Assembly: GCF_020523925.1 (NCBI RefSeq)
Contig: NZ_JAJAPW010000004.1
Location: 372,001-436,000 of the forward strand
Reading direction: 5' to 3'
Source of the DNA: Neotamlana laminarinivorans
GTDB lineage: Bacteria; Bacteroidota; Bacteroidia; Flavobacteriales; Flavobacteriaceae
DNA: 64,000 nucleotides
Both the position numbers and the translations under genes were made by a program. Position 1 is the stretch's first letter. The number at the start of each line of letters is the position of its first letter. This document shows, piece by piece, positions 13,631-34,179 of this stretch. The notes beneath the pieces were generated by a model, which had not been told where the DNA came from, made no database searches, and saw only the letters and a list, made by a program, of their open reading frames with translations.

Positions 13631-13721
13631 ACCATTCAACTATGTTAAACTCCCATTCATCTACAGATAACTATGAGTTGCCGAAAACCATATTTTTCAG
13701 ATTCAATTCCTGTTATTTTTG
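13631..13721 (+). promoter_or_regulatory. Promoter A with direct-repeat operator, upstream of the H-NOX/LytTR operon
   Basis: There are two direct repeats 21 bases apart: ATTCAACTATGT (13634-13645) and ATTCATCTACAG (13655-13666). CCGAAA follows at 13681 and a -7 box TATTTTTG at 13714-13721. The proximal repeat lies 63 bases before the TTTG. The same arrangement occurs at four other promoters in this window. The motif resembles LytTR/AlgR sites (AlgR: ACCGTTCGTC). If the last gene of this operon, a LytTR regulator, binds here, the operon is autoregulated. Confidence 0.75.
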
Positions 13722-13748
13722 TTGGTGATTAATTTAATAATGGGGACC

Positions 13749-14165
13749 ATGGCCAAGAAATTGAATATATTGTTAATAGAAGACGATATGATTGAAGTGA
13801 TGAAATTGAATAGAGCAATAACATCACTAGATCTTAAACATAGAATAATTGAAGCTAATAATGGAGAAGAGGCTTTAAAAATTTTACAAAAAAAAGACGA
13901 ATTACCTGACATTATTTTGTTAGATTTAAACATGCCAAAAATAAACGGTATTGAATTTTTAAATATTTTAAAAAGTGATGATGTTTTAAAATATATACCA
14001 ACTATTATTTTAACAACATCTTCAAATCAAAAAGATTTAGAAGAATGTTACAAAATAGGTATTGCAGGTTATATTTTAAAACCTTTAAAGTATGAAGAAT
14101 ACGTAACAAAATTACAAACAACCTTGGCATATTGGAGTATTAATGAATTAAAGCAAGTATTTTGA
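13749..14165 (+). CDS. Single-domain response regulator (receiver only)
   Basis: The 138-residue protein is one CheY-like receiver with no output domain. Acidic residues are in LIEDD, the phospho-acceptor Asp59 is in LLDLNMP, the switch Thr is in ILTTSS and the Lys is in LKPL. The form with a long loop and C-terminal helix is like Rcp1-type regulators. The ATG at 13749 is chosen (13740 is an alternative); an earlier TTG overlaps the -7 promoter box and cannot be the start. It heads the operon and can serve as the intermediate Asp between the hybrid-less histidine kinases and the separate Hpt protein downstream. Its stop codon overlaps the H-NOX start. Confidence 0.85.
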   Translation: MAKKLNILLIEDDMIEVMKLNRAITSLDLKHRIIEANNGEEALKILQKKDELPDIILLDLNMPKINGIEFLNILKSDDVLKYIPTIILTTSSNQKDLEECYKIGIAGYILKPLKYEEYVTKLQTTLAYWSINELKQVF

Positions 14166-14701
14166 AAGGCATCGTTTTTACAGAGTTTCTAGATTTAGTT
14201 GAAGAAAAATTTGGGTTAGAAATGGTTGATAAAATAATAACCAGCTCTAACTTAAAATCTGAAGGTATCTACACCTCTGTAGGAACATACGAGTTTTCAG
14301 AAATGTTGCAGCTTTTAACAAAGTTGAGCGAAAACACTAATATTGCAATTGACAACCTACTGCAAGTTTATGCAGAACATTTTTTTAGTGTAATAAAGCG
14401 AAGTTATTCTGGAATTTTACAAATGTATTCAGATCCCATCGAAATGTTAGCTTCAATAGAAAATCATATTCATGTTGAAGTTAGAAAAATTTATCCAGAC
14501 GCCGAGTTACCAACCTTTCAAGTTCTAGAAAAAACACCAACCAAATTAGTTTTAATATATAAATCTAGCAGAGCAATGCATGCTTTTGGTTTAGGTTTAA
14601 TGAATAAAACATTCGAACATTTTAACACTGCATCAACAATAGAGTTTGAAAAACTTAATGATGCTGCTACCGAAGTAAAGTTTATCGTCAATAAAATCTA
14701 A
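14162..14701 (+). CDS. H-NOX heme protein, nitric-oxide sensor
   Basis: The 179-residue protein matches H-NOX along its whole length. It starts MKGIVFTEFLDLVEEKFG and has the proximal heme ligand His104 in HIHVEVRK followed by IYPDAELP. The heme-propionate motif Y-x-S-x-R is Tyr133, Ser135, Arg137 in IYKSSR. H-NOX proteins of this size bind NO on ferrous heme and control a partner kinase or signalling enzyme. The start is TTG, fixed by the conserved N-terminus, and overlaps the receiver stop by four bases (TTGA). The next gene, immediately adjacent, is a histidine kinase, the usual H-NOX partner. Confidence 0.92.
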   Translation: MKGIVFTEFLDLVEEKFGLEMVDKIITSSNLKSEGIYTSVGTYEFSEMLQLLTKLSENTNIAIDNLLQVYAEHFFSVIKRSYSGILQMYSDPIEMLASIENHIHVEVRKIYPDAELPTFQVLEKTPTKLVLIYKSSRAMHAFGLGLMNKTFEHFNTASTIEFEKLNDAATEVKFIVNKI

Positions 14702-16681
14702 ATGAGTCAAGATAAAATTGACATATTAGAACGTGCCCTTCAACGAGAAAAGGCGGCTAGAAAACAAGCCGAAAAAATTCTAGAAGAAAAATCTGCAGAG
14801 TTATACGAATCCAATCAAAAGCTAGCAAAAGCATATTCACATTTAGAGTCTACTTGGTCTAAAACAGATTCTCAACTTCAAGGTGTTTTCGAGCATATAG
14901 TAGATGCTTATGTAGTTGCCGATGTAGATGCAAATATTATAAAAATGAATGCTGCAGCTGTAAAGCTTTTAGGTTTAAAAAGTACCAAAGATAGTTGCAA
15001 TTTAATGGAGCTAGTAAGGCCAGACCAATTTGAAGATGTTTACAATGCATTTAATATAGTATATAAACAAGGTGGTTCGGTAAGCGATTTAGTGGTTAAT
15101 ATAACAACAAAAGACAACAGAGGCCTAATAATTCAAATTAATGCAAGTGTTATATACGATAACGGAATACCAATAGCTTCACACGGTATATTTAGAGATA
15201 TCACCGAATCTAAAAACGAAAAGGAAAAGCTTATAGAATCCGAAGATCGATTAGCAACTTTAATTTTAAGTTTAGAAGAAGGTGTGCTTTTAGAAGATGA
15301 AAATCGTAGAATTAAAGTTATAAACAATAGGTTTTGTGAGTTTTTTAATATCCCAATTTCACCAGAAAAGTTAGTAGGTGTAGATTGCTCAAGAGCAGCA
15401 AGAAGATTAAAACACTTATTTAAAAATCCTGAAAAATTCATGCAAAATATTGAAGCAGTTTTGCAAAAAAAACAAGCTGTTTTAAATGAAGAGTTTCAAA
15501 TGGCAGACGGCAGAATTTTTGAGCGCGATTTTATTCCCATTTATAGAGATGGGATTTATAAGGGGCATTTATGGAAGTATAGCGATGTTACCATAAGAAA
15601 GCATTACAGTAAAAGTCTAGAAATAGAAAAACACAAGTACTCGAGCATCATTTCTAATATGAATTTAGGTTTAATAGAAATAGACTTAAATGATAAAATT
15701 TTGATGGCCAACAATAGTTTTACTGAAATTACAGGATATTCAGAAAAAGAACTCATAGGCAAACGAGGTGTAGATTTAATGACCTTTGACCAGGACAGAA
15801 GAGTAATTGAAGGAAAAATTGCTGAAAGAAAAAAAGGTAAAATTGACTCTTACGAATTAAAAATTATTAGAAAAGACGGAGAAACTAGGCATGTGTTAAT
15901 AAGCGGAGCTCCAAATTATAACCTAAAAGGTGAAACTGTAGGTTCAATAGGAGTTATATTTGATATAACTCAAATAAAAAACCTTCAACTACAAAAAGAA
16001 AATCTTCTAAAAAAATTAGAAAAAAGTAACGATGAGTTATACGAATACGCACATGTAGTGTCTCACGACTTAAAATCTCCGCTTAGAAGTATAAATGCCT
16101 TAGTAAGTTGGTTAAAAGAAGATAATAAAGATAATCTAGACGCAGTTAGTTTACAAAACATAGCCCACATTGAAACAACTCTAGAAAAAATGGAACAATT
16201 AATAACAGATGTTCTAGAATACTCTAGTATTACGTTTAATGAAGAGGAAATGAAGCTCGTAAATTTAAACACCCTAGTTACAGATTTACTAAAAATTCTG
16301 CATAAACCAAACCATGTAGAAATTAAAGTAAATAATGTTTTGCCAGAGGTAAAAGGAAACAAAATTAAGCTTCAACAATTATTTCAAAATTTAATAAGTA
16401 ACGCTATTAAATTTATAGATAAAGACAAAGGTTTAGTAGAAATTAATGTAGAAAAACAAGATGAACATTTCGTGTTCTCAGTAAAAGATAATGGTGTAGG
16501 AATTGAAAAGAAATTTCATGATAAAATTTTTAAAATTTTCCACGCTTTAAATAAACGTAAAGATTCAACAGGAGTAGGACTTTCAATAGTTAAAAAAATA
16601 GTTGAATTACATGAAGGAGAAATTTGGCTAGAAAGTGAGCCAAATATAGGTACAACCTTTTACTTTACTTTAAAAAAATAG
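14702..16681 (+). CDS. PAS-domain histidine kinase, likely H-NOX partner
   Basis: The 659-residue soluble kinase starts with a charged coiled coil (residues 1-60: ERALQREKAARKQAEKILEE). Three PAS-like domains follow at about 65-175, 180-295 and 310-430; the last has NMNLGLIEIDLNDKILMANN. The HisKA helix has phospho-acceptor His455 in VVSHDLKSPLRS. The ATPase domain has NLISNAIKF, DNGVGIEKK and GVGLSIVKKIV. No membrane segment and no receiver domain are present. It directly abuts the H-NOX gene, and the N-terminal coil resembles that of H-NOX-associated kinases. It probably passes phosphate to the receiver encoded at 13749 when NO status changes. Confidence 0.88.
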   Translation: MSQDKIDILERALQREKAARKQAEKILEEKSAELYESNQKLAKAYSHLESTWSKTDSQLQGVFEHIVDAYVVADVDANIIKMNAAAVKLLGLKSTKDSCNLMELVRPDQFEDVYNAFNIVYKQGGSVSDLVVNITTKDNRGLIIQINASVIYDNGIPIASHGIFRDITESKNEKEKLIESEDRLATLILSLEEGVLLEDENRRIKVINNRFCEFFNIPISPEKLVGVDCSRAARRLKHLFKNPEKFMQNIEAVLQKKQAVLNEEFQMADGRIFERDFIPIYRDGIYKGHLWKYSDVTIRKHYSKSLEIEKHKYSSIISNMNLGLIEIDLNDKILMANNSFTEITGYSEKELIGKRGVDLMTFDQDRRVIEGKIAERKKGKIDSYELKIIRKDGETRHVLISGAPNYNLKGETVGSIGVIFDITQIKNLQLQKENLLKKLEKSNDELYEYAHVVSHDLKSPLRSINALVSWLKEDNKDNLDAVSLQNIAHIETTLEKMEQLITDVLEYSSITFNEEEMKLVNLNTLVTDLLKILHKPNHVEIKVNNVLPEVKGNKIKLQQLFQNLISNAIKFIDKDKGLVEINVEKQDEHFVFSVKDNGVGIEKKFHDKIFKIFHALNKRKDSTGVGLSIVKKIVELHEGEIWLESEPNIGTTFYFTLKK

Positions 16682-16684
16682 AGG

Positions 16685-17818
16685 ATGAAAATTACACAAC
16701 TTAAAAAACAAAAAAATACTAATTGGGAATATTTAGGAGATAAAATTTCTTTAAATAACCCTTTGGTTTTAGTATTTGGTAATAGGTTTTTACTGGAAGA
16801 AGATACTATTTACAAAGAGGTAAAAGAAATATTTCCAACAGGAAACATTGTTTTTGCATCAACTAGCGGAGATATAACAGCAGAATCTGTAGATGATAAT
16901 AGTGTAACAATTACAGCAATAGAGTTTGAAAAAAGCACTTACGAAATAAAAACCAGCAATGTAGCTAATTTAACAGAAGACAGCTTTAAAACAGGAGAAG
17001 ATATTGTTAAACAGTTTAACACAGAAAATCTCAAGTTTATTTTTATAGTGTCAGAAGGGAGCTTTATAAACGGAAGCCAACTTACTAAAGGCATGAATTC
17101 GGGAACAAACAATAATGTTTTAATTACAGGTGGTTTATGTGGTGATGCAGCCAGATTTGAAAAAACATTAGCATCATATAACGAAACCCCTAAAGAAGGA
17201 GAAATTGTAGCTATTGGTTTTTATGGCGATACATTGGAGGTTTCATTTTCCATATTTGGAGGCTGGACACCATTTGGTCCAGAGCGAACCGTTACAAAAT
17301 CTGAAGGTAATGTACTTTATGAGTTAGATGGATTACCCGCACTAGATTTATATAAAACATATTTAGGTGAAAAGTCTAAAGATTTACCTGCAGCAGCTTT
17401 GTTGTATCCAATGAATGTTAAAATTGAAAATGAAGATCACTCTATTGTTCGAACAATTTTAACCATAAATGAAGAAGATCAATCCATGATATTCGCTGGA
17501 GACATACCCGTTAACTCCAAAGTACAACTTATGATGACTAATGTTGATAATATTGCAAACGCATCAGAGCAAGCAGCCAAACAAGCCTTAGTAAATCGTA
17601 AAAATAATCCAGAAATAGCCTTTTTAGTTAGTTGTATTGGTAGAAAGTTAGTTTTAGACCAACGTGTTGAAGAAGAAGTAGAAGAAGTAATTTCTGTAGT
17701 GGGAGAAAACACTGTAATTTCTGGGTTTTATTCCTATGGAGAAATAGCGCCTTTTAATGGAGAAAATAATTGTCAGTTACATAATCAAACCATGACAGTG
17801 ACTTTAATAAGCGAATAA
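16685..17818 (+). CDS. FIST domain protein, candidate NosP-type NO sensor
   Basis: The 377-residue protein is a FIST_N plus FIST_C protein with no other domain. The FIST_N part holds VFASTSGDI, VSEGSF and LITGGLCGDAARFE; the FIST_C part holds SCIGRKLVLDQRVEEE, GFYSYGEIAP and CQLHNQTMTVTL at the end. FIST proteins of the NosP group bind heme and NO and regulate an adjacent histidine kinase. The following gene is such a kinase and starts on the last base of this gene's stop codon, as in nosP-nahK pairs. Heme binding is inferred, since not all FIST proteins bind heme. Finding H-NOX and FIST in one operon is unusual. Confidence 0.85.
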   Translation: MKITQLKKQKNTNWEYLGDKISLNNPLVLVFGNRFLLEEDTIYKEVKEIFPTGNIVFASTSGDITAESVDDNSVTITAIEFEKSTYEIKTSNVANLTEDSFKTGEDIVKQFNTENLKFIFIVSEGSFINGSQLTKGMNSGTNNNVLITGGLCGDAARFEKTLASYNETPKEGEIVAIGFYGDTLEVSFSIFGGWTPFGPERTVTKSEGNVLYELDGLPALDLYKTYLGEKSKDLPAAALLYPMNVKIENEDHSIVRTILTINEEDQSMIFAGDIPVNSKVQLMMTNVDNIANASEQAAKQALVNRKNNPEIAFLVSCIGRKLVLDQRVEEEVEEVISVVGENTVISGFYSYGEIAPFNGENNCQLHNQTMTVTLISE

Positions 17819-18867
17819 TGAATTCTCTTTTAAAACGACAAATTCGAAAATATTTAAATAAAGATCTGGCTAATAGTAAAGAGCTTGAAGCTTTCATTTC
17901 TGCTGTAAATCATTCATACAATAATTTTGACGAGCAGTTTATAATGTTGCAACGAGCAATGACAATAAGTTCAGACGAGCTTTTTAAAGCTAACCAAAGT
18001 CTGCAAAAGAAAACAGAAGCTCAAAAAAAAGTAATATCTAAATTAAATAGCGCTTTTGAAACTCTTAAATCTAAAAAACAATCTAACGAAAAGGAGATTG
18101 ATTTAAAAGATTTAGATGGCCTAAAATTAGCCGAATTTATAAATGAGCAGGCTCAAAAAGTAGTAGAAGTAAACCAACAACGCGAAAAACTTTTAGAAGA
18201 ATTATCATATCAAAATCAAGAGCTAAACGATTATGCTCACATGATTTCACACGATTTAAAAACACCTTTACGAAGCATAGATACTTTAATTGTTTGGCTG
18301 TACGATGATAATCAAAAAGTGTTTAACCAAAGCGATAGAGAAACCATTTATCAAATAAGAAACAATGTTGAAAAAATGGAACTCTTAATAAATGGTATAT
18401 TAGAGTATTCCACTATAGGAAAAAGTCAGGCAGGAAAATATAATGTAGATGTCAATTACGCAATAAACGAAATTTTAGGAAGGTTAAATATACCATCAAA
18501 TATTACAATAGTAAAAAAACAAGAATTCCCGCTTATTAAAGCAGATATGTACAGAATTCAGCAAGTGTTTCAAAATTTAATATCAAATGCTATTAATTTT
18601 AATGATAAAAAGAAAGGCTTAGTTGAAATAGGATTTGAAAACTTAGATAACTACTGGCAATTTTACGTAAAAGACAATGGCCAAGGTATAGAACCGCAAT
18701 ATTTTGACAAAATTTTTAAAACATTTCAGAAGCTAGAAAATAAGGTCGGATCAATAGGTATGGGGCTATCTGTAGTAAAAAAAATAGTAAATATGTATGA
18801 TGGAGAAGTATGGGTAGAGTCTGAAATAGGTAAGGGCTCCACGTTTTTCTTTACAATAAAAAAATAA
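17818..18867 (+). CDS. Soluble histidine kinase, likely FIST (NosP) partner
   Basis: The 349-residue kinase starts with LLKRQIRKYL and IMLQRAMTISSDELFKANQ, a helical N-terminal region found in kinases that accompany FIST proteins. A coiled coil runs to about 130. The HisKA phospho-acceptor is His145 in MISHDLKTPLRS. The ATPase domain has NLISNAINF, DNGQGIEPQ and GMGLSVVKKIV. No membrane segment, PAS or receiver domain is present. Its ATG overlaps the FIST stop (TAATG). The kinase core is closely similar to that of the upstream PAS kinase (both have SHDLK-x-PLRS), so they probably share the same receiver partners. Confidence 0.85.
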   Translation: MNSLLKRQIRKYLNKDLANSKELEAFISAVNHSYNNFDEQFIMLQRAMTISSDELFKANQSLQKKTEAQKKVISKLNSAFETLKSKKQSNEKEIDLKDLDGLKLAEFINEQAQKVVEVNQQREKLLEELSYQNQELNDYAHMISHDLKTPLRSIDTLIVWLYDDNQKVFNQSDRETIYQIRNNVEKMELLINGILEYSTIGKSQAGKYNVDVNYAINEILGRLNIPSNITIVKKQEFPLIKADMYRIQQVFQNLISNAINFNDKKKGLVEIGFENLDNYWQFYVKDNGQGIEPQYFDKIFKTFQKLENKVGSIGMGLSVVKKIVNMYDGEVWVESEIGKGSTFFFTIKK

Positions 18868-18871
18868 AAAA

Positions 18872-19189
18872 ATGGAACAACCCAATTTATCATACATACA
18901 TAGTATGTCTGGAGGAGACAAAGCTTTTGAACAAAAGTTAATTAACATTATAAAAGAAGAGTTTCCACAAGAAAAACAGGCTTATTATAACAGTGCTTCT
19001 GCTAAACAATTAAAAGAAACAGCAGAGAATGTACACAAACTTAAACATAAAATTAGTATTTTAGGGCTTGAAAAAAGTTATGAAATTGCAAGGGAATACG
19101 AAGAAAACTTAGTTGAGGGCAATACAAACCTTGAAAATGAGTTTAACAATATCCTACAAAACATAACAGATTATTTAGAGCAACTATAA
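18872..19189 (+). CDS. Histidine phosphotransfer (Hpt) protein
   Basis: The 105-residue all-helical protein has the Hpt signature VHKLKHKISILGLE, with phospho-acceptor His55. It starts 4 bases after the second kinase. As a free Hpt protein it can carry phosphate from the single-domain receiver (13749) to the LytTR regulator (next gene), completing a His-Asp-His-Asp relay built of separate proteins in one operon. No other domain is present. Confidence 0.85.
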   Translation: MEQPNLSYIHSMSGGDKAFEQKLINIIKEEFPQEKQAYYNSASAKQLKETAENVHKLKHKISILGLEKSYEIAREYEENLVEGNTNLENEFNNILQNITDYLEQL

Positions 19190-19198
19190 TAAAAATTT

Positions 19199-19915
19199 AT
19201 GAATTGTATAATTATTGATGATGAGTTAACCGCACGTGCCATCATTAATCAATTGTGCGCTAGCACCACATCAATAAATGTTTTAGGTGAATTTTCTAAT
19301 GCTATTCAGGCCATAAAATATTTAAATCAAAACGAAGTAGATTTAATATTTCTTGATATTCATATGCCTGATTTTACGGGCTTCGATTTTATTGAAACTA
19401 TAAAAAACCCACCAAAAATTATTTTAACAACCTCCGATCCTCAGTTTGCCATTCAAGCTTTTGAGTATAGTTGTATTGTAGATTATCTTGTAAAACCAAT
19501 TACCATAGAGCGTTTTAATAAAGGTATACAAAAAGCAGAGGCTTTTACTAAAGTTACAAATAATACAACCGCAGACACACCAGAAGAAAGTGAGGCAAAC
19601 ACAGATAACCATTTATATATTAATATAGATAGGCGGTTAATAAAAATTGAAATTCCTAGTATTTATTTAATTGAGGCAAAAGGCGACTACATACAAGTAA
19701 AAACAGAAGATAAAAATTATACAGTACATTCTACATTAAAAAAAATAGAAGAGAAATTACCACCCGATTTGTTTTTAAAAGTACACCGTTCCTATATAAT
19801 AAACATAAAAAAAATAATAGATATAGAAGATAACAGCGTGCTAATCAAACGAGATGTCATCCCTGTTAGTCGTTCTAATCGTCCTGAATTAATGAAGCGT
19901 TTAAATCTTTTGTGA
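19199..19915 (+). CDS. LytTR family response regulator
   Basis: The 238-residue protein has a receiver (acceptor Asp53 in FLDIHMP, Thr in ILTTSD, Lys in LVKPI) and a C-terminal LytTR DNA-binding domain at about 135-238: LIEAKGDYIQVKT, VHRSYIINIKKI and IPVSRSNRPEL. LytTR proteins bind imperfect direct repeats upstream of promoters, often of extracellular polysaccharide or fimbrial genes. It ends the H-NOX/FIST operon, 9 bases after the Hpt gene. Five direct-repeat operators in this window, all at the same distance from their -7 boxes, are its likely targets. The link between 115 and 135 is short and hydrophilic. Confidence 0.92.
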   Translation: MNCIIIDDELTARAIINQLCASTTSINVLGEFSNAIQAIKYLNQNEVDLIFLDIHMPDFTGFDFIETIKNPPKIILTTSDPQFAIQAFEYSCIVDYLVKPITIERFNKGIQKAEAFTKVTNNTTADTPEESEANTDNHLYINIDRRLIKIEIPSIYLIEAKGDYIQVKTEDKNYTVHSTLKKIEEKLPPDLFLKVHRSYIINIKKIIDIEDNSVLIKRDVIPVSRSNRPELMKRLNLL

Positions 19916-19916
19916 A

Positions 19917-20005
19917 TTTCATCGTTTGTTTTAAACCATTCATCTACAGTTAAACTGTATTAACCGAAATAAAATCCTACAAAAAGAGTTTTAAGATTAA
20001 ATTTG
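19917..20005 (+). promoter_or_regulatory. Promoter B with direct-repeat operator, upstream of the type IX secreted protein
   Basis: TTTCATCG (19917-19924) and ATTCATCTACAG (19938-19949) are direct repeats 21 bases apart. CCGAAA is at 19964 and the -7 box TAAATTTG at 19998-20005. The proximal repeat is 64 bases before the TTTG. The leader to the ATG at 20027 is short. The layout is the same as at promoters A, C, D and E. Confidence 0.75.
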
Positions 20006-20026
20006 TGATATAAACCTACTTATGTC

Positions 20027-22606
20027 ATGAAAAAAACTTTACTTTTTTTATTTTTAATCAGTTCGCTGGTTAATGCACAAGAACCATTTAACTGCGATTA
20101 TAACGCATATTTGTTTCAATACAATGATGTGTATGCAGTCGATTTAGCATCAGGAAACTCTTATCTTGTCGCTCAAGATGTAACACCTGGAGATATAAAT
20201 GCAGCAGCTTATAACCCTGCTGATGGTTATATTTGGGGCTCTTTAAAAACACCAGCAAAAACCATAGTTAGAATTGGTAAAGATTTTAGTACCACAACTT
20301 TTTACATAGATGAACTACCAACTAGTAATAGATATGTAGGCGATGTAAGTAGTAATGGTATTTACTACTTAAAAGGCGGAGGGACTACATATTACGCCAT
20401 AGATGTAAATCCAGAATCTGCAACATATGGAGAGCATTTAGCAACTAAAACATTATCACAGAATATAAATGTTCATGATTGGGCATTTAATGCTGTAGAT
20501 GGTAAGTTGTATACTGTTGAAAAAAACACTAATATTTTATATAGAATTGATGCAGAAACAGGAATTGTAAATAACCTAGGTGTAGTGCCTATAATTTCTG
20601 GTTTAACCTACACTTATGGTGCCGTTTATTTTGATGCATCAGGACGTTTTTATGTGTCTGCCAACCAAACAGGAACAATTTATGTTATACAATCAGTTCA
20701 AGATATAAACGGTTTAAACGTAATAGAGTCTAATCTATTTGCTTTTGGGCCTTCTAGTGCTTCAAACGATGGGGCACGTTGTCCTACAGCTCCAGTACCA
20801 CAAGAAGATTGTACAAATGGTATTGATGATGATGGAGATGGCTTAGTAGATTGTGAAGATCCGTCATGTTCTGGTTACGCATCATGTCCAGTTATCGAGG
20901 TTACAAGTACTTCTAGTTCTAACGAAGGCGGTTTAGAAAGTAACAACCGTTTGGCACAGCAAATATCTAAAAGAAACTTTAATAGATCTAAAACAAGCTA
21001 TAAGTTTAATAAAACAACAGCTAAAAAATTAGTTAAGCCAACATCTTATGGTAAAACAAAAACAGGCAAAGGAAATGGAGGAGCTTCCTTAAGAGATTTT
21101 ATTCCGTTTGGTACTATAAACGAAGATGAGGTTATCGAGGCAACTCCTTCAGATTTAATTGGTATAACCAATGCCGTAGACATTTACTCTGTAGACTATT
21201 TAAAAAATGATGAAACTATTGCTTCTATTTTATTACTTGAAACAGAAAACGGCGTTTACGAACACACAAAATATATCTGTGACAGATTACTAGGAGCAGA
21301 ATTAATATCAGTATCAACATTACAAATAAAAGATCAACCTTTTATAAGAGCTTTAATTAGAAATCCTGAAGGTGCTTTAGAGTTTGCCTTAAGTTTTTCG
21401 GCAACATCAACAAATAACGATGCTAATTTTGGTATAGAAAGTCATTGGACTTTAGATAAATACACAGATAATGCTGGGTTTTACAACTTTCAAATATGGT
21501 CTAATTCATTAGATGACCTATTAGCACTAAGTGATGAAGTTTTAAATTTACTTGAAGCACAGCAACCAATTTCAGGATATTCAAATTCTACACCACCAAC
21601 AGTTTTTGTTAGAAAAGGTAATTACAGAAACGGGAAATTAGATTTACAAATTGTTAATACAAACAGAACCGATGCTGTTGCGTTTGATGGAGGTTTAAGA
21701 GCTACAGAAACAGAAACGGTTGAAAACGTAACTACAAGTATAGATTTAGATGGAAATTTTATTACTTCGCTTGAAGTTGATGCGGGTAATTTATTTGACA
21801 TTGGGTTTAGAATTGGTGATGGTATTGCTACACCAGACGATTTATTTATGTCTGATGGACCATGGGGCTATGATGATGCTGCTTCTGGAACAGAAGTATT
21901 ATCATACACCGTTCAAGAAAACGAAGAAACCTTTAATGATAATGATTTTGCCGTAGAGCGTAATATAAATGTTGAAGCAGAAATAGATGACTATGTAGCG
22001 GTTTACAGAGCATTAACTCCTAAATTTAATGCTTTAGATTTAACTAATTATGAGACTTTAAACTTTCAAGCTAAAGGAACTGGAAACGTTATAATTAGAT
22101 TAGTTAAAGAAAGTGTAACCGATTGGCAACAGCAATACAAAACAACTATTGCATTAACAGAAAATTTACAAAACTATTCAATCTCATTTAATGATTTTAA
22201 AGATTTAAATGGAAATAGTATTGATGCATCAGATATAACTTCAATAGTATTTACAATGTTAGCAGAAAACCACGGACAGGTAGAATCTAAAAGTTTAAAC
22301 TTAAAGCAAGTAAGTTTTTCATCTGTAAATCAGTCGTTATCCACAAATGAAGTAGCTGCAAATACCTTGTTATCTTACCCTAATCCGTTTAAAAATAGAA
22401 CGGTAATTCAACTAGAGGATAATGAATCAACTAGTGTAAACATTCAGGTTTATGATATGTTAGGTAGAGTTGTAGACGAACAAATACTAACTGTAAATAA
22501 TAAAGAAGCTGTATATAATGCACCCAAATTATCAAAAGGAGTTTACAAGTATAAATTAGTTAATAGCGCAAAACAAGTTTATTCAGGAACATTTATGAAA
22601 GAGTAA
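20027..22606 (+). CDS. Secreted protein with type IX secretion sorting domain
   Basis: The 859-residue protein starts with a signal peptide (MKKTLLFLFLISSLVNAQ). Residues of about 20-260 look like a beta-propeller or DUF6923-like domain. A Ca-binding-like CTNGIDDDGDGLVDCEDPSC follows at 263-282. A Ser/Lys-rich link precedes a beta-rich middle region at about 350-620, and a carbohydrate-binding-like beta sandwich lies at about 640-770. The C-terminus (YPNPFKNRTVIQLEDN, then VYDMLGRVVDEQ, then KGVYKYKL) is a type A sorting signal for the Por secretion system. It is therefore exported and attached to the cell surface or matrix. Its promoter carries the shared operator, which points to a matrix or adhesion role. 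Confidence 0.8.
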   Translation: MKKTLLFLFLISSLVNAQEPFNCDYNAYLFQYNDVYAVDLASGNSYLVAQDVTPGDINAAAYNPADGYIWGSLKTPAKTIVRIGKDFSTTTFYIDELPTSNRYVGDVSSNGIYYLKGGGTTYYAIDVNPESATYGEHLATKTLSQNINVHDWAFNAVDGKLYTVEKNTNILYRIDAETGIVNNLGVVPIISGLTYTYGAVYFDASGRFYVSANQTGTIYVIQSVQDINGLNVIESNLFAFGPSSASNDGARCPTAPVPQEDCTNGIDDDGDGLVDCEDPSCSGYASCPVIEVTSTSSSNEGGLESNNRLAQQISKRNFNRSKTSYKFNKTTAKKLVKPTSYGKTKTGKGNGGASLRDFIPFGTINEDEVIEATPSDLIGITNAVDIYSVDYLKNDETIASILLLETENGVYEHTKYICDRLLGAELISVSTLQIKDQPFIRALIRNPEGALEFALSFSATSTNNDANFGIESHWTLDKYTDNAGFYNFQIWSNSLDDLLALSDEVLNLLEAQQPISGYSNSTPPTVFVRKGNYRNGKLDLQIVNTNRTDAVAFDGGLRATETETVENVTTSIDLDGNFITSLEVDAGNLFDIGFRIGDGIATPDDLFMSDGPWGYDDAASGTEVLSYTVQENEETFNDNDFAVERNINVEAEIDDYVAVYRALTPKFNALDLTNYETLNFQAKGTGNVIIRLVKESVTDWQQQYKTTIALTENLQNYSISFNDFKDLNGNSIDASDITSIVFTMLAENHGQVESKSLNLKQVSFSSVNQSLSTNEVAANTLLSYPNPFKNRTVIQLEDNESTSVNIQVYDMLGRVVDEQILTVNNKEAVYNAPKLSKGVYKYKLVNSAKQVYSGTFMKE

Positions 22607-25199: not shown

Positions 25200-25242
25200 A
25201 AGTATGATTTTTATTACGTGCAAGTTAATACCAAATTAGCTA

Positions 25243-26890: not shown

Positions 26891-26974
26891 TCTATAGTTA
26901 AATACCATTCGTCTATACTTTGAGGTTTTCTAACTAAAATCAACAAAAAGAACAAGACGTTTTTGTGTTATTTG
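26891..26974 (+). promoter_or_regulatory. Promoter D with direct-repeat operator, upstream of the glycosyltransferase
   Basis: TCTATAG (26891-26897) repeats as TCTATAC (26912-26918) at a 21-base step. The proximal motif ACCATTCGTCTATAC (26904-26918) is one base from the AlgR site ACCGTTCGTC in its first ten positions. CTAAAA is at 26934 and TTTG at 26971-26974, 64 bases from the motif start at 26907. The leader to the ATG is 34 bases. Confidence 0.7.
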
Positions 26975-27008: not shown

Positions 27009-28235
27009 ATGAAATTAGCTATAGTAACAGCATATCCACCAAGTAAGGTAACATTAAATGAGTATGCATACCATTTAGTTAAACAGTTTAGAAAAAAAGA
27101 AGATGTTACAGAACTTATTTTACTAACCGATAAAACTAAAGATAAAAAAGATATTACGTTTACCGAATTAGGCTGCGATATTACAATTAAAGAATGCTGG
27201 AGCTTTAATAGTTACAAAAATATTTTAAGTGTAAATAAAGCTATAAACCAAACAAAGCCAGATGCTGTGTTATTTAATTTACAGTTTATGAAGTTTGGAG
27301 ATAAAAAAGTAGCTGCAGCTTTAGGTTTAATGTTACCATTAGTTTGTAAGTTAAAAGGTATACCAAATATTGTTTTGTTACACAATATTTTAGAAGAAGT
27401 AGATTTAGGGAGTGCTGGTTTTACCAACAGTAAACTAATGCAAAAAATATATGGTTTTATAGGGACATCTTTAACCAAATTAATTTTGCAAGCCGATACT
27501 GTAGCCGTTACCATGCAAAAATATGTAGATATTTTGCAAGAAAAATATAAAGCTCAAAACATAACACTTATACCGCATGGTACTTTTGAAATAGCCGAAG
27601 AACCTAACTACAAAATACCAACTAACCCAATGCAAATAATGACTTTTGGAAAGTTTGGTACTTATAAAAAAGTTGAAGGGATGATTGAAGCTGTAGAAAA
27701 AGTAAGAGCCAAAACAGGTTTGGATTTAGAAGTGGTTATAGCAGGAACTGATAACCCAAATGTGCCAGGATATTTAGCGCAAGTAAAAGAAGCTTACAAG
27801 CATGTGTCTCAAGTGGTTTTTACAGGCTATGTTGAAGAACATGAGGTGCCTATGTTGTTTAATGAAAGTGCAGTGGTAGTTTTTCCTTATACATCCACAA
27901 CAGGTAGTTCCGGAGTTTTACACCAAGCAGGAAGTTATGGTAAAGCAGTAGTTATGCCAGATTTAGGGGATTTAGCTTTGCTTGTACAAGATGAAGGTTA
28001 TAGAGGCGAATTTTTCGAACCTAATTCTGTTGAAAGTTTAGCCAATGCTATTGAAAATATTGTTACAAATGACGCCTATAGAATTGAGTTAGGTAAAGCA
28101 AATTATAAAGCAGCCACAGCTTATCCTATGGATGTTATAGCTGATATGTATTTAAACAGATTTAAAAAAAATATAGAAACAAAACGCGGTGCAAAAACTC
28201 CTAAGGTTAATAGCACAAATGAGATTATTCTATAG
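27009..28235 (+). CDS. GT-B glycosyltransferase (GT4-like)
   Basis: The 408-residue protein has the two-domain GT-B layout. The N-terminal Rossmann-like part is MKLAIVTAYPPSKVTLNEYA. The C-terminal GT1-type domain starts near LIPHGTFEIAEE and has IMTFGKFGTYKKVEGMIEA, VFTGYVEEHEVPMLF and the nucleotide-sugar site FPYTSTTGSSGVLHQAGSYGKA (about residues 295-316). These are retaining transferases that add a sugar from an activated donor to a growing glycan on the cytoplasmic face. It has its own promoter with operator D. Its 3' end overlaps the convergent GH5-like gene by 11 bases. Confidence 0.85.
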   Translation: MKLAIVTAYPPSKVTLNEYAYHLVKQFRKKEDVTELILLTDKTKDKKDITFTELGCDITIKECWSFNSYKNILSVNKAINQTKPDAVLFNLQFMKFGDKKVAAALGLMLPLVCKLKGIPNIVLLHNILEEVDLGSAGFTNSKLMQKIYGFIGTSLTKLILQADTVAVTMQKYVDILQEKYKAQNITLIPHGTFEIAEEPNYKIPTNPMQIMTFGKFGTYKKVEGMIEAVEKVRAKTGLDLEVVIAGTDNPNVPGYLAQVKEAYKHVSQVVFTGYVEEHEVPMLFNESAVVVFPYTSTTGSSGVLHQAGSYGKAVVMPDLGDLALLVQDEGYRGEFFEPNSVESLANAIENIVTNDAYRIELGKANYKAATAYPMDVIADMYLNRFKKNIETKRGAKTPKVNSTNEIIL

Positions 28236-29745
28236 TATTTATATATTTAAACGCTGGTTTAGTCTCTCCTTTTTGGTTTATAAAACCAAAATTACCTTGA
28301 ACCCGTTTTTTCCAAGGAAGTCTTCCAACGACTTCCTTTGGTATTTCTACAAAGTCGTATAATGTCCAAGACATAAATTGTAAGTTATTTTTAGCAATTA
28401 TTTCTTGGATTTTTTTATGATAGTTGGCTTGATCTTCTTCTGTACTTCCAAAGGGCTTCCATAAGCCTCTGTAACTCGATAGCCCAAACTCTTGCATTAC
28501 AAGCGGTTTGTTAGGTAAAAGTTTTTTTAAATGTTTTACTTCATCGTTTAATACTTCTAAATCTTCATAATAGTGAAAGGATATAAAATCTACTTTGTCC
28601 TTTAAAATAGTGGCACTTTCTGTGTTAGACCATCCTATAGTTATCGGGTGCTTTTCATCTATAGATTTAACTAAAACAATCATGTTTTCAAGCCAAGCTA
28701 TAACATTATCTTTTCCTCTAGATTCAAAATCTAGATTGGGTTCGTTTTTAATATCATAGGCCAATAGTGCTTTATGGTTTTTAACGGCTAATACTATTTT
28801 TTCTGCGTGGCGTTGGTTTAAAGTCCAATCCATTATGGAGTAATTACCATAAAAATCGAATAAGGTTAAAATTACTTTTAGGTTGTTAGCTTCAGCAATA
28901 TCTAGTGTTTTAAGTAGTTTACTTACCTTATTATAATCTATAGTTGCTTTTCCAAAATCTTCATATTGTATAAAAATTCGTATTGAATTTAAACCTGCAT
29001 TTTTAATTATTTTAAAATCTTTATTAATAGTGTCTGCAGAGAAATCATCGCCAAACATTTTCCAAGGAGTTGCTTGTGGGTAGTAATTAATTCCTTTAAT
29101 TTTAAAATTGTTAAGAGGGCTTGTTTGGGGTATATCGGTATTATCTTTTTCATTTTCTTTTACCATATGCCTAATGCGCCAAAAACCATCTTCTAATAAA
29201 AAAACTACTTTGTATGTAGAGATTTCAGTGGTTTCGTAAACTAAACTATCATTTTTAAAAACACGTTTGTATTCTTTTACGTCCTTATCTGTTAAAACAG
29301 CTAATTGACCGTCTTCGCTAAAGAACTCAAGTTTAGGGTTGTGTTTTAAAGTGGTTGCTTCAATAGTTATGTTTTGTTTTTTATTTAGTTCTATATACTC
29401 AAATAGATTTTCTCTAGCATGTTCAGTATAATAATCTTTAATGCCAGCTGTTTTGTTGGTTTTGTAAGCAATTTGTTTAACGTACCAAGCATCTAAATAA
29501 TCGTTTTGTAAGGCGTTTAAGTTTTCTTTATCCATTGGGCGACCTTCATTGTTTAAGGTTTCCCACGTCATTTTAGGTAAATATTGTTCAACTTTTGCAA
29601 TTTCTGTGTGCAGCATTTTACTACGATCGGCACCGGTGTTTAAATAACTAAAAATACCGCTAAGTGCAGATACTATTAGGGCAATAAGCAAAATGTAAGA
29701 TGCTAATAAAACCGTACGCATTATATTTTTATTAATACTTACCAT
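28225..29745 (-). CDS. Membrane-anchored GH5-like glycoside hydrolase
   Basis: The 506-residue protein has one N-terminal membrane anchor (TVLLASYILLIALIVSALSG) and a region at about 40-220 that I do not recognise. A TIM-barrel glycosidase domain follows at about 225-500. The barrel shows GINYYP, NSIRIFIQY, the acid-base Glu in DIKNEPN, FISFHYY and the nucleophile Glu in VMQEFGLSS, with a Trp-containing SWTLYDF strand at the end. This is the layout of GH5/GH2-type hydrolases of clan A. Polysaccharide operons often include such a hydrolase to trim or release the polymer. It is the last gene of a three-gene minus-strand operon and overlaps the gene before it by seven bases. Confidence 0.8.
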   Translation of the reverse strand: MVSINKNIMRTVLLASYILLIALIVSALSGIFSYLNTGADRSKMLHTEIAKVEQYLPKMTWETLNNEGRPMDKENLNALQNDYLDAWYVKQIAYKTNKTAGIKDYYTEHARENLFEYIELNKKQNITIEATTLKHNPKLEFFSEDGQLAVLTDKDVKEYKRVFKNDSLVYETTEISTYKVVFLLEDGFWRIRHMVKENEKDNTDIPQTSPLNNFKIKGINYYPQATPWKMFGDDFSADTINKDFKIIKNAGLNSIRIFIQYEDFGKATIDYNKVSKLLKTLDIAEANNLKVILTLFDFYGNYSIMDWTLNQRHAEKIVLAVKNHKALLAYDIKNEPNLDFESRGKDNVIAWLENMIVLVKSIDEKHPITIGWSNTESATILKDKVDFISFHYYEDLEVLNDEVKHLKKLLPNKPLVMQEFGLSSYRGLWKPFGSTEEDQANYHKKIQEIIAKNNLQFMSWTLYDFVEIPKEVVGRLPWKKRVQGNFGFINQKGETKPAFKYINTIE

Positions 29746-30944
29746 AGCTTTTTATTAAATTGTTTGGTTATTCCTGCTGTTTCAATTTTAAAATTGTAGT
29801 TGTTATTTTTATATATGGCAGGCTTTAAGTTAAAATATACGTAACCATTAAACGTAGTTTTGGTTAGTATTTTAACCAACTGGTTGTTAGAATAAATGTG
29901 AAGTTTTACGTGTAAACCATCGGGAATCATTTGGTTCATAAAACTTTGTATAGGACCAACAGAAATGATTCGGTTTTTATTTGTAAATGCAACATTAAAA
30001 TCTTTAACTACTTGTTTGTAGTTTAAAGTTATGGTGTTACTTTCTGCCATACCATTAATGTAAGCTTTTACAGACCAATTATCGGCGTGGTCTGGATGTA
30101 TAATTTTAGAATTAGCAACTCCATTTAGTGTTAAGCCAGATGTTTTTAAAACGTTTCCTTCTGCATTTTTTATAAAAAAATCAACATAAGTACCGTCGCT
30201 AACTACATTATTAAATCTGTCTTTTATAACAGAAGTTGTAAAGTTGGTAATTTGATTTCCATCGGCATAATTATGAGGACTTGAATACGAAATTTTAAAA
30301 CGAGTTGGAACTGCAGGCATAGCATTAATTGTAAATTCTTTTGAATTCGTGCCTAAAGCTTCAGAAGACACCAAAATACGACCATCTTGTTTTTTTGAGT
30401 ATATGTTTTTAAAAGCAATTAGATTTTTAGTGAAAATGTTATCAACTTCTTCTGAATTTAAAAACTGATTTTTAACTTTTACAGGCGTATTTGTAGGTAC
30501 AGGGTTATCTAAAGAATCGGTAGGAATTACAACAAGCATACTATAATCTGTTCCTCCAGCTTCAATACTAGGAGGACCAATATAGGTTTCCATTGTGGCA
30601 ACTTCAGCTTTGGGTTTTATGTATAGTTTACCTGAAGTTGGATAATTTTTGTCTAAAATTTTCCAATTTATCACACCTATTTTTTTTGCTATATTTTCAG
30701 GTAAAGTATATTCTAAATTTAAATTGTTTATGGTGCCTGTTACCAAAGTAGTGCCGTAACTGTTTGAGCAGTAAAGTAAAGGTGTGTTATTATTTGCGTT
30801 TTTAAACTTTAAAACAATGTGGCTGCCTACGGTAAACTCTGTTTTAGTTGTTAAAAGTTTAACTGAAGTGTTTTTCTGAGCAAAAACCAAAGGCGAAGCT
30901 AGCCAAATACTTAAAAGTAATATGTAAATGGATTTAAAATTCAT
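29739..30944 (-). CDS. Secreted Ig-like beta-sandwich protein of the polysaccharide operon
   Basis: The 401-residue protein has a signal peptide (MNFKSIYILLLSIWLASPLVFAQ). It appears to be built of three or four beta-sandwich domains. The third resembles invasin/BIG-type Ig repeats: PTRFKISYSSPHNYADGNQITNF, then VIKDRFNNVVSDGTYVDFFI. No catalytic motif is visible. Its start codon overlaps the stop of the large membrane-protein gene (TAATG), and its end overlaps the GH5-like gene, so the three are tightly coupled. A periplasmic scaffold or glycan-binding role is inferred from this context only. Confidence 0.6.
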   Translation of the reverse strand: MNFKSIYILLLSIWLASPLVFAQKNTSVKLLTTKTEFTVGSHIVLKFKNANNNTPLLYCSNSYGTTLVTGTINNLNLEYTLPENIAKKIGVINWKILDKNYPTSGKLYIKPKAEVATMETYIGPPSIEAGGTDYSMLVVIPTDSLDNPVPTNTPVKVKNQFLNSEEVDNIFTKNLIAFKNIYSKKQDGRILVSSEALGTNSKEFTINAMPAVPTRFKISYSSPHNYADGNQITNFTTSVIKDRFNNVVSDGTYVDFFIKNAEGNVLKTSGLTLNGVANSKIIHPDHADNWSVKAYINGMAESNTITLNYKQVVKDFNVAFTNKNRIISVGPIQSFMNQMIPDGLHVKLHIYSNNQLVKILTKTTFNGYVYFNLKPAIYKNNNYNFKIETAGITKQFNKKLW

Positions 30945-33900
30945 TAAAAAGGGCTGCCAATGTAAGTGTTAATTTCAATTTTAATATAGCTAAAATCTGG
31001 ATGATTTATAGGTTGTAATTCGTTATTTATATGGTTTGTAATTCTGTTTGGAATAATTTTATTTGAAATATCGCTGTTGGGTAAACCGTTAACAAAAATG
31101 TTTTCCATGCTGGTATTTATAATTTTTACGGCACCAGGTTCTAAAATTTGATATTCAAAATTTTGTTTACGTTCTTGTCTTACGCCTTCTTTAACAAAAA
31201 AATGATCAACCCAAACCATGTTTTTATTATCATCGTAATAAGAAATTAAAAGCTGAGGTATTGTTATTTCTTGAATACCACTATTAAATAAGTTTCCAAA
31301 AATATAGTTTTCAGTAATATTAACATCACTTAAAACGACACCTTTATATAAATCTGAACCAGCAACATTTCCAGCAGCTTGCAGGTTAAATTTTGTGGGT
31401 TGTTCTTCAAATTCAACTGGAGTAAATTCGTCTGGATTAAAAGTATCTGGAATAGAATCTTGGGTTTTGGACCACGCTATGCCTTCAAAATTAATTCTAA
31501 AGCAGCTTGATTCTTTTGGCATTAATTTATGTTTAATATGATATTTTGCATTGTACGTTGCTAATTGTTTGTTATCGTTGTTATAGAGGGTGCCTTTTAA
31601 AATAACATCGGCAGGAACATTATCTATATTTTGTACTTCTCCAATAATGGCATAACTACCATTGTATTTTACTAATTTGGCCGAAATAACTTCTAAAACG
31701 GGTTGCTTTAAAATATCTTCATGATGGGTTTGTTCTGTAGTAATTCGGCGTCTACCTTGGTTGTAATATTTTGTAACATTGTCTGAGTATAGTTGGTCTG
31801 GCGGTAAATCATTGTTTAAATCATCGGGTTGTAAATACCATTTTCCTTTAATTTTTGATAAGGATTTATAATCTATCTTCTCAATTTTTTCTAGTGGCGT
31901 AATCCATTGGGTAGTTACTTTAGCCGAAACAGTACTGTCGTTATGTTTTGTTATTTCAGATTCTATAGCATCCATTTTGGCGTAGCTACTTAAAAGTCCA
32001 TCTGTTACCGATATTTCTAACATATACTGTGCTATAGGTAAATTACTTGCAGGATTTATTAAACTATGAGCTTTTTCAAATTCTTTAAAATCTAAGGCAT
32101 CGTAATATGCTATTATAGCATTTTCAGGACTTCGTTGCGAGTCATTTTTTATATAAAAAAGGTATATGCCATAAAATATAATAATGGTTAATATTAAAGA
32201 CCAAACATGTGTTATTCTTATTACATTTCTATTAAATTTATTGTATTGTACAGGGAATTTTAAGAATTCTGGAATGGGCTTAAATCGAGTTTTTAACATA
32301 ATAACCCATAACATTTGTATGTTTAGAATAAAAGCTACTATTACTGTTAAAAAAGGCATGATGCCCCAGTGTATTTTTAACCACTTAGCTACATCTTCTT
32401 TAGGCAATATTTCTGATACAGGAGGGATGTTTAAACGTTCCCATACCATAATGCCGTTTTCTAGTTGTCTTAAGCGTTGCCAACCGCAGAAATATAAAAT
32501 AGGATCGTAAAATTTATCGTTTGAAAAAATGTATTTTAAATTATATTTTTCTGGAGTAGTTAAAAATTGTTGTAAAGAGCCAATACCGGCTACACCTTTA
32601 AATTTTGAGTTTTCTAGGCGCTCTATAGGTCGCGTTGTTAATTCAGGTAATCTTCTTGCAGAGTGGTAATTACCGTCTACAGTCATGGCGTTAGTTTGCG
32701 CACTTAACCAAGCCATTTGGTCGCCAAAGCCAAGAGTTAAAAATCGCCATTTATCATGATCATCTTGATTTAAAAAATTCACAATAGGAAGCATTTTTAT
32801 TTTTTGAGGTTGTGATGGCCTAAAATAATTTAAACTCATAGTGAAAATTACCATAAATACGAACAAACCTGCTAGAATACCTCCAATTATTCTGTGATAA
32901 ACACCTCCAAATTTTTTCTGAATAGCATCTTTCATATCTCCTTCTACAAAACGATAGGCAAACTCACCCATCATAGGAATAGAAAGTATAGAAGCCCAAA
33001 GTGTAAAACGGTCTAATGTTAAAATATTAAAAGCAGTTTCGCCTAACATTTTTAAAGGAACGGGTGTTGTACCTCCGGTTCCTAAAATGGTACATATAGT
33101 AACCGATAAACCAAAAAACAAATAGCGTTTACTGTAATATCGGTAAAAAATATACGGTAATAAAACAAGTAATATTCCCCAAGGAATTAAAAAGAAAACG
33201 AGACCAGATGAGGTGATTTCTAAAAAATTATCGCGCGACCCATGCGGAATAGGAACCTGTGTAATAGGGTTGGCTTTAGAATTTAACCAATAAGGAAAAA
33301 TACAACCAACAATAAGCACCAAAGACAACATGCCAAAAACAACAATGCGTTTAAATAATTTAAAAAAACTATTTAAAAACACTTTAAAAGTAACGGCTTT
33401 CATGGTGCCTACTTGCTCTTTAGATACATCCATTAAAACCATTCCTATTAAGGGGAAAATAAAGAATACCATTCCAAAAATAGGCGTAACATGGTGCGAG
33501 GTTACAGTAACCGATATTAAAGATAAACAAGTAGCTAAATACCACTTTTTGCCGGTTTTAAGCCATAAATAAATTTCTGGTAAGGCGTGCATTAAAACCG
33601 AAACACCAACAATACTTGGTAGTTGCCCAAAAATATGCAGCGTTTCAACAAAAGATGACGAAAACACAGCCAACACACACGCATAACCAGCAACAGTTTT
33701 ATTAGCCGTCATCATTAAAGAAAATCGGTAGGTTCCTGTAATAAATAAGGTTATTGCAATTAATGCCACGGTAAACATACCAAACTTAACGCCTCCTATA
33801 TAAGAAAGCACGCCTATAGATTGATGTACTAATGGCGGATAACTCTGTACTGTAAAACCTGTATACCATTCGTAATTCCAAGGTTCAAACCAACTATTAG

Positions 33901-34036
33901 CATAATGGTCTGCAAAAAATAAATGAATTAAAGCATCATAAGTAGTTTCTAGGGTAAAAAAAATAGAACTACCATGGAATGCTAAACCTAGTAAAAGTGC
34001 AGCAATTAAAAATTTATTTGATTTTTCGGGCTTCAA
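30944..34036 (-). CDS. Large GT-C-like membrane protein (PF10131-type, 6-pyruvoyl-tetrahydropterin synthase-related membrane domain)
   Basis: The 1030-residue protein has about 12 membrane segments in the first 600 residues. Near its start are TTYDALIHLFFADHYANSW and YEWYTGFTVQSYPPLVHQ, the luminal acidic loop and Y-x-P-P motif found in PF10131-type and GT-C membrane glycosyltransferases. A further TM pair lies at about 550-660, followed by a periplasmic region (670-1030) with NTF2-like and beta-sandwich parts. GT-C enzymes transfer sugars from lipid carriers on the outer face of the inner membrane, so polymerisation or modification of the exopolysaccharide is plausible. It heads the operon with the Ig-like and GH5-like genes. 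Confidence 0.65.
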   Translation of the reverse strand: MKPEKSNKFLIAALLLGLAFHGSSIFFTLETTYDALIHLFFADHYANSWFEPWNYEWYTGFTVQSYPPLVHQSIGVLSYIGGVKFGMFTVALIAITLFITGTYRFSLMMTANKTVAGYACVLAVFSSSFVETLHIFGQLPSIVGVSVLMHALPEIYLWLKTGKKWYLATCLSLISVTVTSHHVTPIFGMVFFIFPLIGMVLMDVSKEQVGTMKAVTFKVFLNSFFKLFKRIVVFGMLSLVLIVGCIFPYWLNSKANPITQVPIPHGSRDNFLEITSSGLVFFLIPWGILLVLLPYIFYRYYSKRYLFFGLSVTICTILGTGGTTPVPLKMLGETAFNILTLDRFTLWASILSIPMMGEFAYRFVEGDMKDAIQKKFGGVYHRIIGGILAGLFVFMVIFTMSLNYFRPSQPQKIKMLPIVNFLNQDDHDKWRFLTLGFGDQMAWLSAQTNAMTVDGNYHSARRLPELTTRPIERLENSKFKGVAGIGSLQQFLTTPEKYNLKYIFSNDKFYDPILYFCGWQRLRQLENGIMVWERLNIPPVSEILPKEDVAKWLKIHWGIMPFLTVIVAFILNIQMLWVIMLKTRFKPIPEFLKFPVQYNKFNRNVIRITHVWSLILTIIIFYGIYLFYIKNDSQRSPENAIIAYYDALDFKEFEKAHSLINPASNLPIAQYMLEISVTDGLLSSYAKMDAIESEITKHNDSTVSAKVTTQWITPLEKIEKIDYKSLSKIKGKWYLQPDDLNNDLPPDQLYSDNVTKYYNQGRRRITTEQTHHEDILKQPVLEVISAKLVKYNGSYAIIGEVQNIDNVPADVILKGTLYNNDNKQLATYNAKYHIKHKLMPKESSCFRINFEGIAWSKTQDSIPDTFNPDEFTPVEFEEQPTKFNLQAAGNVAGSDLYKGVVLSDVNITENYIFGNLFNSGIQEITIPQLLISYYDDNKNMVWVDHFFVKEGVRQERKQNFEYQILEPGAVKIINTSMENIFVNGLPNSDISNKIIPNRITNHINNELQPINHPDFSYIKIEINTYIGSPF

Positions 34037-34090
34037 GATATTTATTTAAAGAAGTGTAAATATATAAAATACATTAACTAAAGTTTTTTT

Positions 34091-34179
34091 AATCGTCTAC
34101 ACTAAATAGCGTTTCATCTACACTTCATATTTCATTTAACTAAAATATGGATTTTCGTACAATAACTGTAATATTTTTG
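34091..34179 (+). promoter_or_regulatory. Promoter E with direct-repeat operator, upstream of the receiver-glycosyltransferase gene
   Basis: TCGTCTACAC (34093-34102) and TCATCTACAC (34114-34123) are direct repeats at a 21-base step, differing at one base. CTAAAA is at 34140 and the -7 box TATTTTTG at 34172-34179. The proximal repeat starts at 34112, 64 bases before the TTTG. The region also serves as the upstream region of the divergent operon starting at 34036. Confidence 0.75.

Follow-up and report, generated by a model that had tools for sequence, protein, structure and literature searches.

The locus

The stretch of DNA analysed here, hereafter the window, comprises 64 kb of the 3.62-Mb genome of Neotamlana laminarinivorans (125 contigs), and positions are counted from its first nucleotide. 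It holds a signalling operon with a gene for a LytTR response regulator (19199–19915), genes for polysaccharide functions, and five promoter sites, A to E, in which a repeated motif stands at a fixed distance from a −7 box. As judged from the sequences, the five sites are very probably operators of one conserved regulon, to which the LytTR protein would bind, likely activating its own operon together with units for a polysaccharide matrix.

Site A (13634–13721, on the plus strand, as are the sites and genes below unless stated otherwise) precedes the signalling operon, the first gene of which encodes a receiver-only response regulator with a Response_reg domain (13740–14165, the start being 13740 or 13749 by eye). 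It is followed by genes for an H-NOX haem gas sensor (14162–14701), a PAS histidine kinase (14702–16681), a FIST protein with FIST and FIST_C domains (16685–17818), a further histidine kinase (17818–18867), both kinases being named by domain assignment, an Hpt-like phosphotransfer protein (18872–19189; Hpt at 22.7 bits, under the cut-off of 24.6) and the LytTR response regulator. The H-NOX protein scores 133.7 bits for HNOB against a cut-off of 25.5 (E-value 7.7e-39) and keeps His102/104 and the sequence YKSSR at 133, the haem-ligand histidine and YxSxR being the motifs that define H-NOX. The FIST protein is distantly NosP-like and lies below the NCBIfam NosP equivalog cut-off, with 69.9 bits versus 450. 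When the LytTR loci of the 18 best relatives were taken for comparison, H-NOX was present in 14 and FIST was matched in 7 of the 18, and the FIST protein and second kinase (16685–18867) form an optional pair.

The LytTR response regulator, the likely binder of the five sites, contains a Response_reg domain (65.4 bits, cut-off 30.2) and a LytTR domain (78.8 bits, cut-off 22.6), the latter being the sole DNA-binding domain found by Pfam in the operon. Pfam reveals no sensor domain in the protein and a receiver domain is present, so it is not a one-component regulator of the RcoM/CoxC type. Its relatives in several genera are 60–86% identical, further matches listed are about 30–51% identical, and an orthologue is found in 113 of 299 Flavobacteriaceae genomes.

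The other four sites precede genes for surface and polysaccharide functions. Site B (19917–20005) stands before a gene for a secreted protein with a type IX sorting tail (DUF6923; 20027–22606). Site C (25224–25312), between divergent TPR and STAS genes, is directly followed by the gene for an 86-residue STAS-domain protein (25352–25612; STAS E-value 4.9e-7) and then by that for a flippase-like polysaccharide protein with a Polysacc_synt_3 domain (25646–26890). A group 1 glycosyltransferase gene (27009–28235) comes after site D (26886–26974), and site E (34091–34179) precedes the gene for RR-GT2, in which a receiver domain is joined to a glycosyltransferase of family 2 (34214–35404). The best named match of RR-GT2 is from Tamlana nanhaiensis, with 84% identity, in a scan that may omit this genome and near ones.

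Three direct repeats in front of a −7 box

The core motif [AT]TTC[AG]TCTA[CT]A starts at 13655, 19938, 25245, 26907 and 34112, and the TTTG of a −7 box lies 63, 64, 64, 64 and 64 bases downstream at sites A to E, respectively, with both sets of positions in the original prediction proving exact; a sixth exact match at 28653 had been overlooked. The consensus TAnnTTTG given for the −7 box of Bacteroidota sigma-A promoters (PMC9723704) is matched exactly at A (13714–13721), B (19998–20005) and E (34172–34179), while at C (25309) and D (26971) TTTG is in register but lacks the TA. As had been claimed, a further copy of the motif is readily recognised 21 bases upstream at A, D and E, with a partial one at B and a weak one at C.

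The sites had been described as two-copy direct repeats with a separate CCGAAA or CTAAAA element 26–28 bases after the motif start. The 21-bp period stands, but relatives show three copies of ACCATTCRTCTACA, and the additional element, found at +26, +26, +26, +27 and +28, is a diverged third copy. The repeats accordingly begin at 13634, 13655 and 13676 in site A, at 19917, 19938 and 19959 in B, at 25224 (weak), 25245 and 25266 in C, at 26886, 26907 and 26928 in D, and at 34091, 34112 and 34134 in E, where the third copy is shifted by one base.

The three-copy structure emerges from an alignment of 38 promoter sites from 15 genomes, including this one, which were chosen by the middle copy and position. 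The loci of the 18 relatives had given 56 core-motif matches, from which 33 were kept by eye as promoter sites and 23 were dropped as lying within genes, on the opposite strand, in a genome without the cluster, or as neighbouring copies. The alignment carries information in three stretches with a spacing of 21 bp and in the −7 box. The middle copy, ACCATTCRTCTACA, is the strongest, the first retains T, R and C at the corresponding places, and the third is approximately TYANCKAAA. Likeness to the middle copy peaks at offsets −21 and +21, with 6.3 and 5.6 of 9 positions in these 38 sites and 6.1 and 6.6 in 60 held-out sites described below, whereas the next best offset gives about 4.2 and the mean is 3.0. 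The 21-bp spacing is close to two helical turns, which would place the three copies on one face of the DNA.

The arrangement fits the rule for LytTR operators, two repeats of 9–11 nucleotides separated by spacers of 11–13 nucleotides (PMC4847170), and also shows the three evenly spaced direct repeats of RcoM and CoxC operators. In Flavobacterium psychrophilum the −7 box TAnnTTTG is located at −12 to −5 (PMC9723704). With the box set at these positions, the three copies would begin at about −93, −72 and −51, and the third would extend to about −41. TTG is not enriched in the −33 slot, being present in 8 of 98 sites versus 16 in a control slot.

The full operator marks the locus within the genome

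The bare core motif is a poor guide to the regulon, with 72 matches in the genome compared to 54 for a reversed control pattern, and as a regulon finder it was rejected. When the flanks of all 72 matches are considered, TTTG starts 63 to 65 bases on for 5 of the window's 6 matches and for 2 of the 66 elsewhere, where 1.8 are expected, an in-register enrichment with a hypergeometric p of about 9e-6. The locus is thereby marked by motif and spacing combined and not by the motif alone. Random occurrence of the motif without spacing to −7 boxes, which the original prediction had named as evidence against itself, is therefore what is seen for the bare core motif but not for the full operator.

Sites A to D also stand out by score. 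A position matrix built from 22 sites of other genera only gives 32.3, 36.9, 28.4 and 34.8 bits for A, B, C and D, while the best score in twenty simulated 64-kb sequences is 8.9 bits. A sequence-only operator model, made from 33 sites with this genome's own sites left out and ending before the −7 box, places D, B and A at ranks 1–3, C at rank 5 and E at rank 10 (E-value 0.36) among 17 hits in the genome. The scan that had been proposed as a check thus gives hits in front of signalling and polysaccharide genes, which in the wider survey below track the LytTR gene, and the regulon in this genome is mostly this single locus.

Three hits elsewhere in the genome are not claimed as members. The hit at rank 4 (C59:523522), before a gene with a tetrahydrodipicolinate succinyltransferase (dapD-type) domain, has TTTG at +84 and a further repeat-like copy 21 bp downstream, and that at rank 7 (C59:252277) has TTTG at +86. 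The hit at rank 6 (C81:213917), upstream of a large gene resembling those for surface proteins, has TAnnTTTG in register; a single orthologue of this gene was detected, in genome G001, and visual inspection shows no operator in front of it.

Conservation across Flavobacteriaceae

Of the 18 relatives, 12 have the flippase and glycosyltransferase genes in the compared stretch, and the motif is again found at the corresponding promoters. The operator model was then applied to the 299 Flavobacteriaceae genomes, of which 286 are held out once the training genomes and this genome are removed, held-out being defined by genome and not by genus. At an E-value of at most 0.003 operators are found in 101 of the 113 genomes that have the LytTR orthologue and in 12 of the 186 that lack it, or in 88 of 100 versus 12 of 186 when held-out genomes only are counted; at 1e-4 the held-out counts become 74 of 100 and 3 of 186. 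The E-values are rough, as the 12 of 186 orthologue-negative genomes passing 0.003 compare with about 0.6 expected, and because the genomes are related by descent Fisher values are not given as probabilities.

As the model ends before the −7 box, the spacing was read from the best 60 of the 122 held-out hits listed, from 41 genomes. TTTG starts at +63 in 12, at +64 in 34 and at +65 in 2 of these sites (48 of 60), compared with a mean of 0.15 sites per position elsewhere, and where the slot lacks TTTG (12 sites), a closely similar sequence such as TTTA takes its place in several cases. The first downstream tblastn match (E-value at most 1e-6, identities down to 29%) is a glycosyltransferase in 20 cases, the type IX protein in 11, the signalling operon in 11, the flippase in 7, the STAS protein in 4 and RR-GT2 in 1, with none in 6. 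That the shared motif reflects chance or simple AT-rich repetition, as the barely enriched core might suggest, is contradicted by this held-out spacing and runs counter to the register, the three-copy structure and the conservation in other genera, which leaves such an explanation a negligible chance.

The claim that the sites mark a regulon is thus borne out by a held-out model that puts this locus first in the genome and by the same promoters and −7 spacing in many genera. Its membership is likewise supported, with the amendments that the operator has three copies and not two, that the STAS protein is added, and that the regulon here is mostly one locus.

The probable link to the LytTR regulator

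Several observations weigh against assigning the operators to the LytTR protein of this operon. Most of the 122 held-out hits listed are close to its gene, 100 being within 40 kb and 5 farther on the same contig, while 16 are on another contig and 1 is in a genome without an orthologue; the survey genomes, moreover, share ancestry. At an E-value of at most 0.003 the model detects nothing in twelve of the 100 held-out genomes that have the LytTR orthologue. Site E itself reaches only 3.7 bits with the other-genera matrix, owing to its starting with T and to the third copy that is out of register. Operator hits nevertheless lie just upstream of 35 of 67 named RR-GT2 relatives, a set that partly overlaps genomes already used and is not independent, and so place site E, for all its weakness in this genome, in a class that is real.

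Among the 12 operator-positive, orthologue-negative genomes the strongest three (G184, G120 and G075) were inspected. In G184 an Hpt-like gene stands at the end of one contig, and the end of another carries a LytTR fragment (residues 1–53) with 53% identity, so the LytTR gene was probably cut by the assembly. In G120 none of the known targets is found within about 1.5 kb of the hit and no TTTG is in register, and the hit is probably due to chance. G075 is a real exception to the link between operator and orthologue: its genome is 100% complete and carries an operator before an operon of response regulator, H-NOX and kinase genes (L360, G075:C9), with two operator-like repeats and TTTG out of register, and no LytTR orthologue is found, the best LytTR match being 41% identical. 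A substitute regulator may be at work there. A further case, G132, has RR-GT2 and no orthologue, and the operator model finds nothing on its 5.5-kb contig; before RR-GT2, copies resembling the repeat at a spacing of 21 bp can nevertheless be made out by eye, as can a TTTG, so G132 was dropped as an RR-GT2 genome lacking the operator, and it too counts against the link. Because of G075, G132, G184 and the twelve LytTR-positive genomes without hits, the association of the operators with this LytTR protein falls short of being proved.

The operators might instead be bound, alone or additionally, by another LytTR paralogue, with the LytTR protein of the operon correlated only through inheritance of the block. 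The protein has 28 matches in this genome, and the operator in G075 and the closeness of most hits to the LytTR gene would both be accounted for. Such a paralogue is nonetheless unlikely to be the answer, as the hits track the orthologue over the 286 held-out genomes despite widespread paralogues, and operator hits occur in 38 of the 48 LytTR-positive genomes without RR-GT2 as well as in 63 of the 65 with it. In addition, three targets lie on contigs other than that of the LytTR gene, although in draft assemblies separate contigs may be neighbours in the genome. One is the type IX protein gene of G005, treated separately from the 60 sites, which is 65% identical over 854 aligned residues and has an operator 86 bp before its start with TTTG at +64. 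The other two are in G313, both with TTTG at +64, one preceding an OEP and then a Wzz-like gene, the match to Wzz being under its cut-off, and the other a Wzy_C gene. Binding by the LytTR protein encoded at 19199–19915 remains the preferred reading.

A proposed model for the regulon

In the proposed mechanism, the LytTR protein would bind the three direct repeats, the strongest being the middle copy ACCATTCRTCTACA. The third copy ends near −41 and adjoins the −33 position, so that the bound regulator could recruit RNA polymerase by contact. The presence of a −7 box without a −33 element makes activation most likely, and contact with RNA polymerase appears to be the best reading of how it is achieved.

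Repression that is lifted by the signal has a precedent in CoxC, a LytTR protein which binds three repeats and represses (PMC11347149). RcoM and CoxC are one-component carbon monoxide sensors with three repeats 18–21 bp apart, and the RcoM repeat, as here, begins with TTC (PMC11347149). The regulator at the present locus is, in contrast, a response regulator, and the CoxC repeats overlap the −35 box (PMC11347149), whereas the third copy here would end upstream of a promoter that has no −33 element. Activating LytTR repeats are known to sit just upstream of −35 (PMC6193735), and repression is accordingly improbable at these sites.

If the LytTR protein activates, it would raise its own operon in a positive feedback, and its further outputs, namely the type IX protein, the STAS-flippase unit, the glycosyltransferase and RR-GT2, would constitute a polysaccharide matrix programme. 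The fusion in RR-GT2 suggests a possible direct control of sugar transfer by phosphorylation. If the relay also controls this fusion, it may govern both how much of the polymer machinery is made and how active it is.

The input is probably a phosphorelay, in which the kinases, the receiver protein and the Hpt-like protein would pass phosphate towards the LytTR protein under the gating of H-NOX and FIST. The presence of the H-NOX and FIST genes points to nitric oxide as the likeliest signal, the direction of its effect being left unpredicted. H-NOX proteins are able to bind other ligands, and the regulon could be real with another gas, the redox state or the second kinase setting the input. Such a signal other than nitric oxide is a serious possibility, if not the favoured one, given that the FIST protein fails the NosP cut-off and accompanies the operon in a minority of relatives; H-NOX, on the other hand, is found in most of their loci and keeps its haem-binding motifs here, and in Vibrio nitric oxide is known to control a kinase and Hpt protein by way of H-NOX or NosP (PMC6769237). 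The most comprehensive version of the model, a nitric oxide-gated phosphorelay that across Flavobacteriaceae would run a polysaccharide matrix regulon through a three-repeat operator replacing the −33 element, and RR-GT2 besides, is put forward tentatively, with a chance that we judge to be just short of even.

Relation to known systems

Response regulators with a receiver and a LytTR domain, such as AgrA, ComE, VirR, YpdB and PlnC/D, bind two direct repeats for which exact spacing matters (PMC4847170, PMC4064291). The present system shares with them the type of regulator and a spacing of about 21 bp between direct repeats that precede the promoter. It departs from them in having three copies of another sequence, in its Bacteroidota promoter, which has only the −7 box, and in a polysaccharide output. 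The half-site CCGTTCGTC of AlgR from Pseudomonas resembles CCATTCGTC found here, and exopolysaccharide output is common to both, but AlgR sites are single and variably placed and do not form regular repeats (PMC4064291), whereas the CCATTCGTC-type copies here are three and at a fixed distance. The variably placed CCGTTCGTC half-sites of an AlgR regulon are thus not what is found, orthology to AlgR having been compared by family models only.

The LytTR Regulatory Systems (LRS) are likewise autoregulated via direct repeats just upstream of −35 (PMC6193735), with a membrane inhibitor protein and two repeats in place of a phosphorelay and three. In Vibrio, H-NOX or NosP with nitric oxide bound to it inhibits the kinases upstream of an Hpt protein, and the output is biofilm (PMC6769237). 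Gene content points to a similar arrangement here, with H-NOX beside a kinase that would feed the Hpt-like protein, but the likely endpoint is the LytTR protein encoded in this operon, which would act on polysaccharide promoters.

In Bacteroidota, to our knowledge, the binding codes of few activators have been established. Neither a LytTR operator nor an H-NOX/LytTR regulon in this phylum was found among the titles and abstract openings of the open-literature matches listed. What is new, as far as it can be read from DNA, is that in Bacteroidota a candidate operator of three repeats goes with a response regulator and with promoters that have the −7 box alone, and is associated across a family with an H-NOX operon and polysaccharide genes. 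Its code has a fixed geometry, is readable from sequence and predicts targets in many genera, other polysaccharide operons included. Gas sensing by the signalling operon would thereby be coupled to the making of matrix in a family that is common in marine waters, and relatives that can be cultured allow every step to be tested.

Neighbouring genes and further observations

The sixth core motif, at 28653, is followed by CTAAAA and lies inside a GH5-like gene on the minus strand (28225–29745) with no TTTG in register; it is also present in G001. Site E is located in the interval 34037–34213 between RR-GT2 and a divergent gene on the minus strand (30944–34036), and might act in both directions. 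The divergent gene encodes a 1030-residue protein without a Pfam match, 58–98% identical in the nine relatives aligned; its predicted structure is poor (mean pLDDT 54), helix-rich in the first half and strand-rich in the second, and no function is claimed for it. At the upstream edge of site C, CAAGTTAA (25199–25228) is kept in several genera, and on the minus strand it reads TAACTTGC, resembling a TAnnTTGY box (PMC9723704) about 20 bp before the TPR gene, so that site C may drive promoters both ways.

Small proteins similar to the STAS-domain protein recur elsewhere. Operator hits in G001 and G003 (L143, L144, L147) precede a small protein that is STAS-like by eye, and a similar small STAS-like gene (by eye) lies directly upstream of the H-NOX operon in G027. 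In G003 the LytTR gene and its operators occur twice on one contig (G003:C2:151227 and 340122) with equal scores, reflecting either a duplication or an assembly error. Finally, at L183 (G311:C1) two successive operators, with TACTTTAG at the place of the −7 box, each precede a near-identical protein of 86 residues with a signal-like start.

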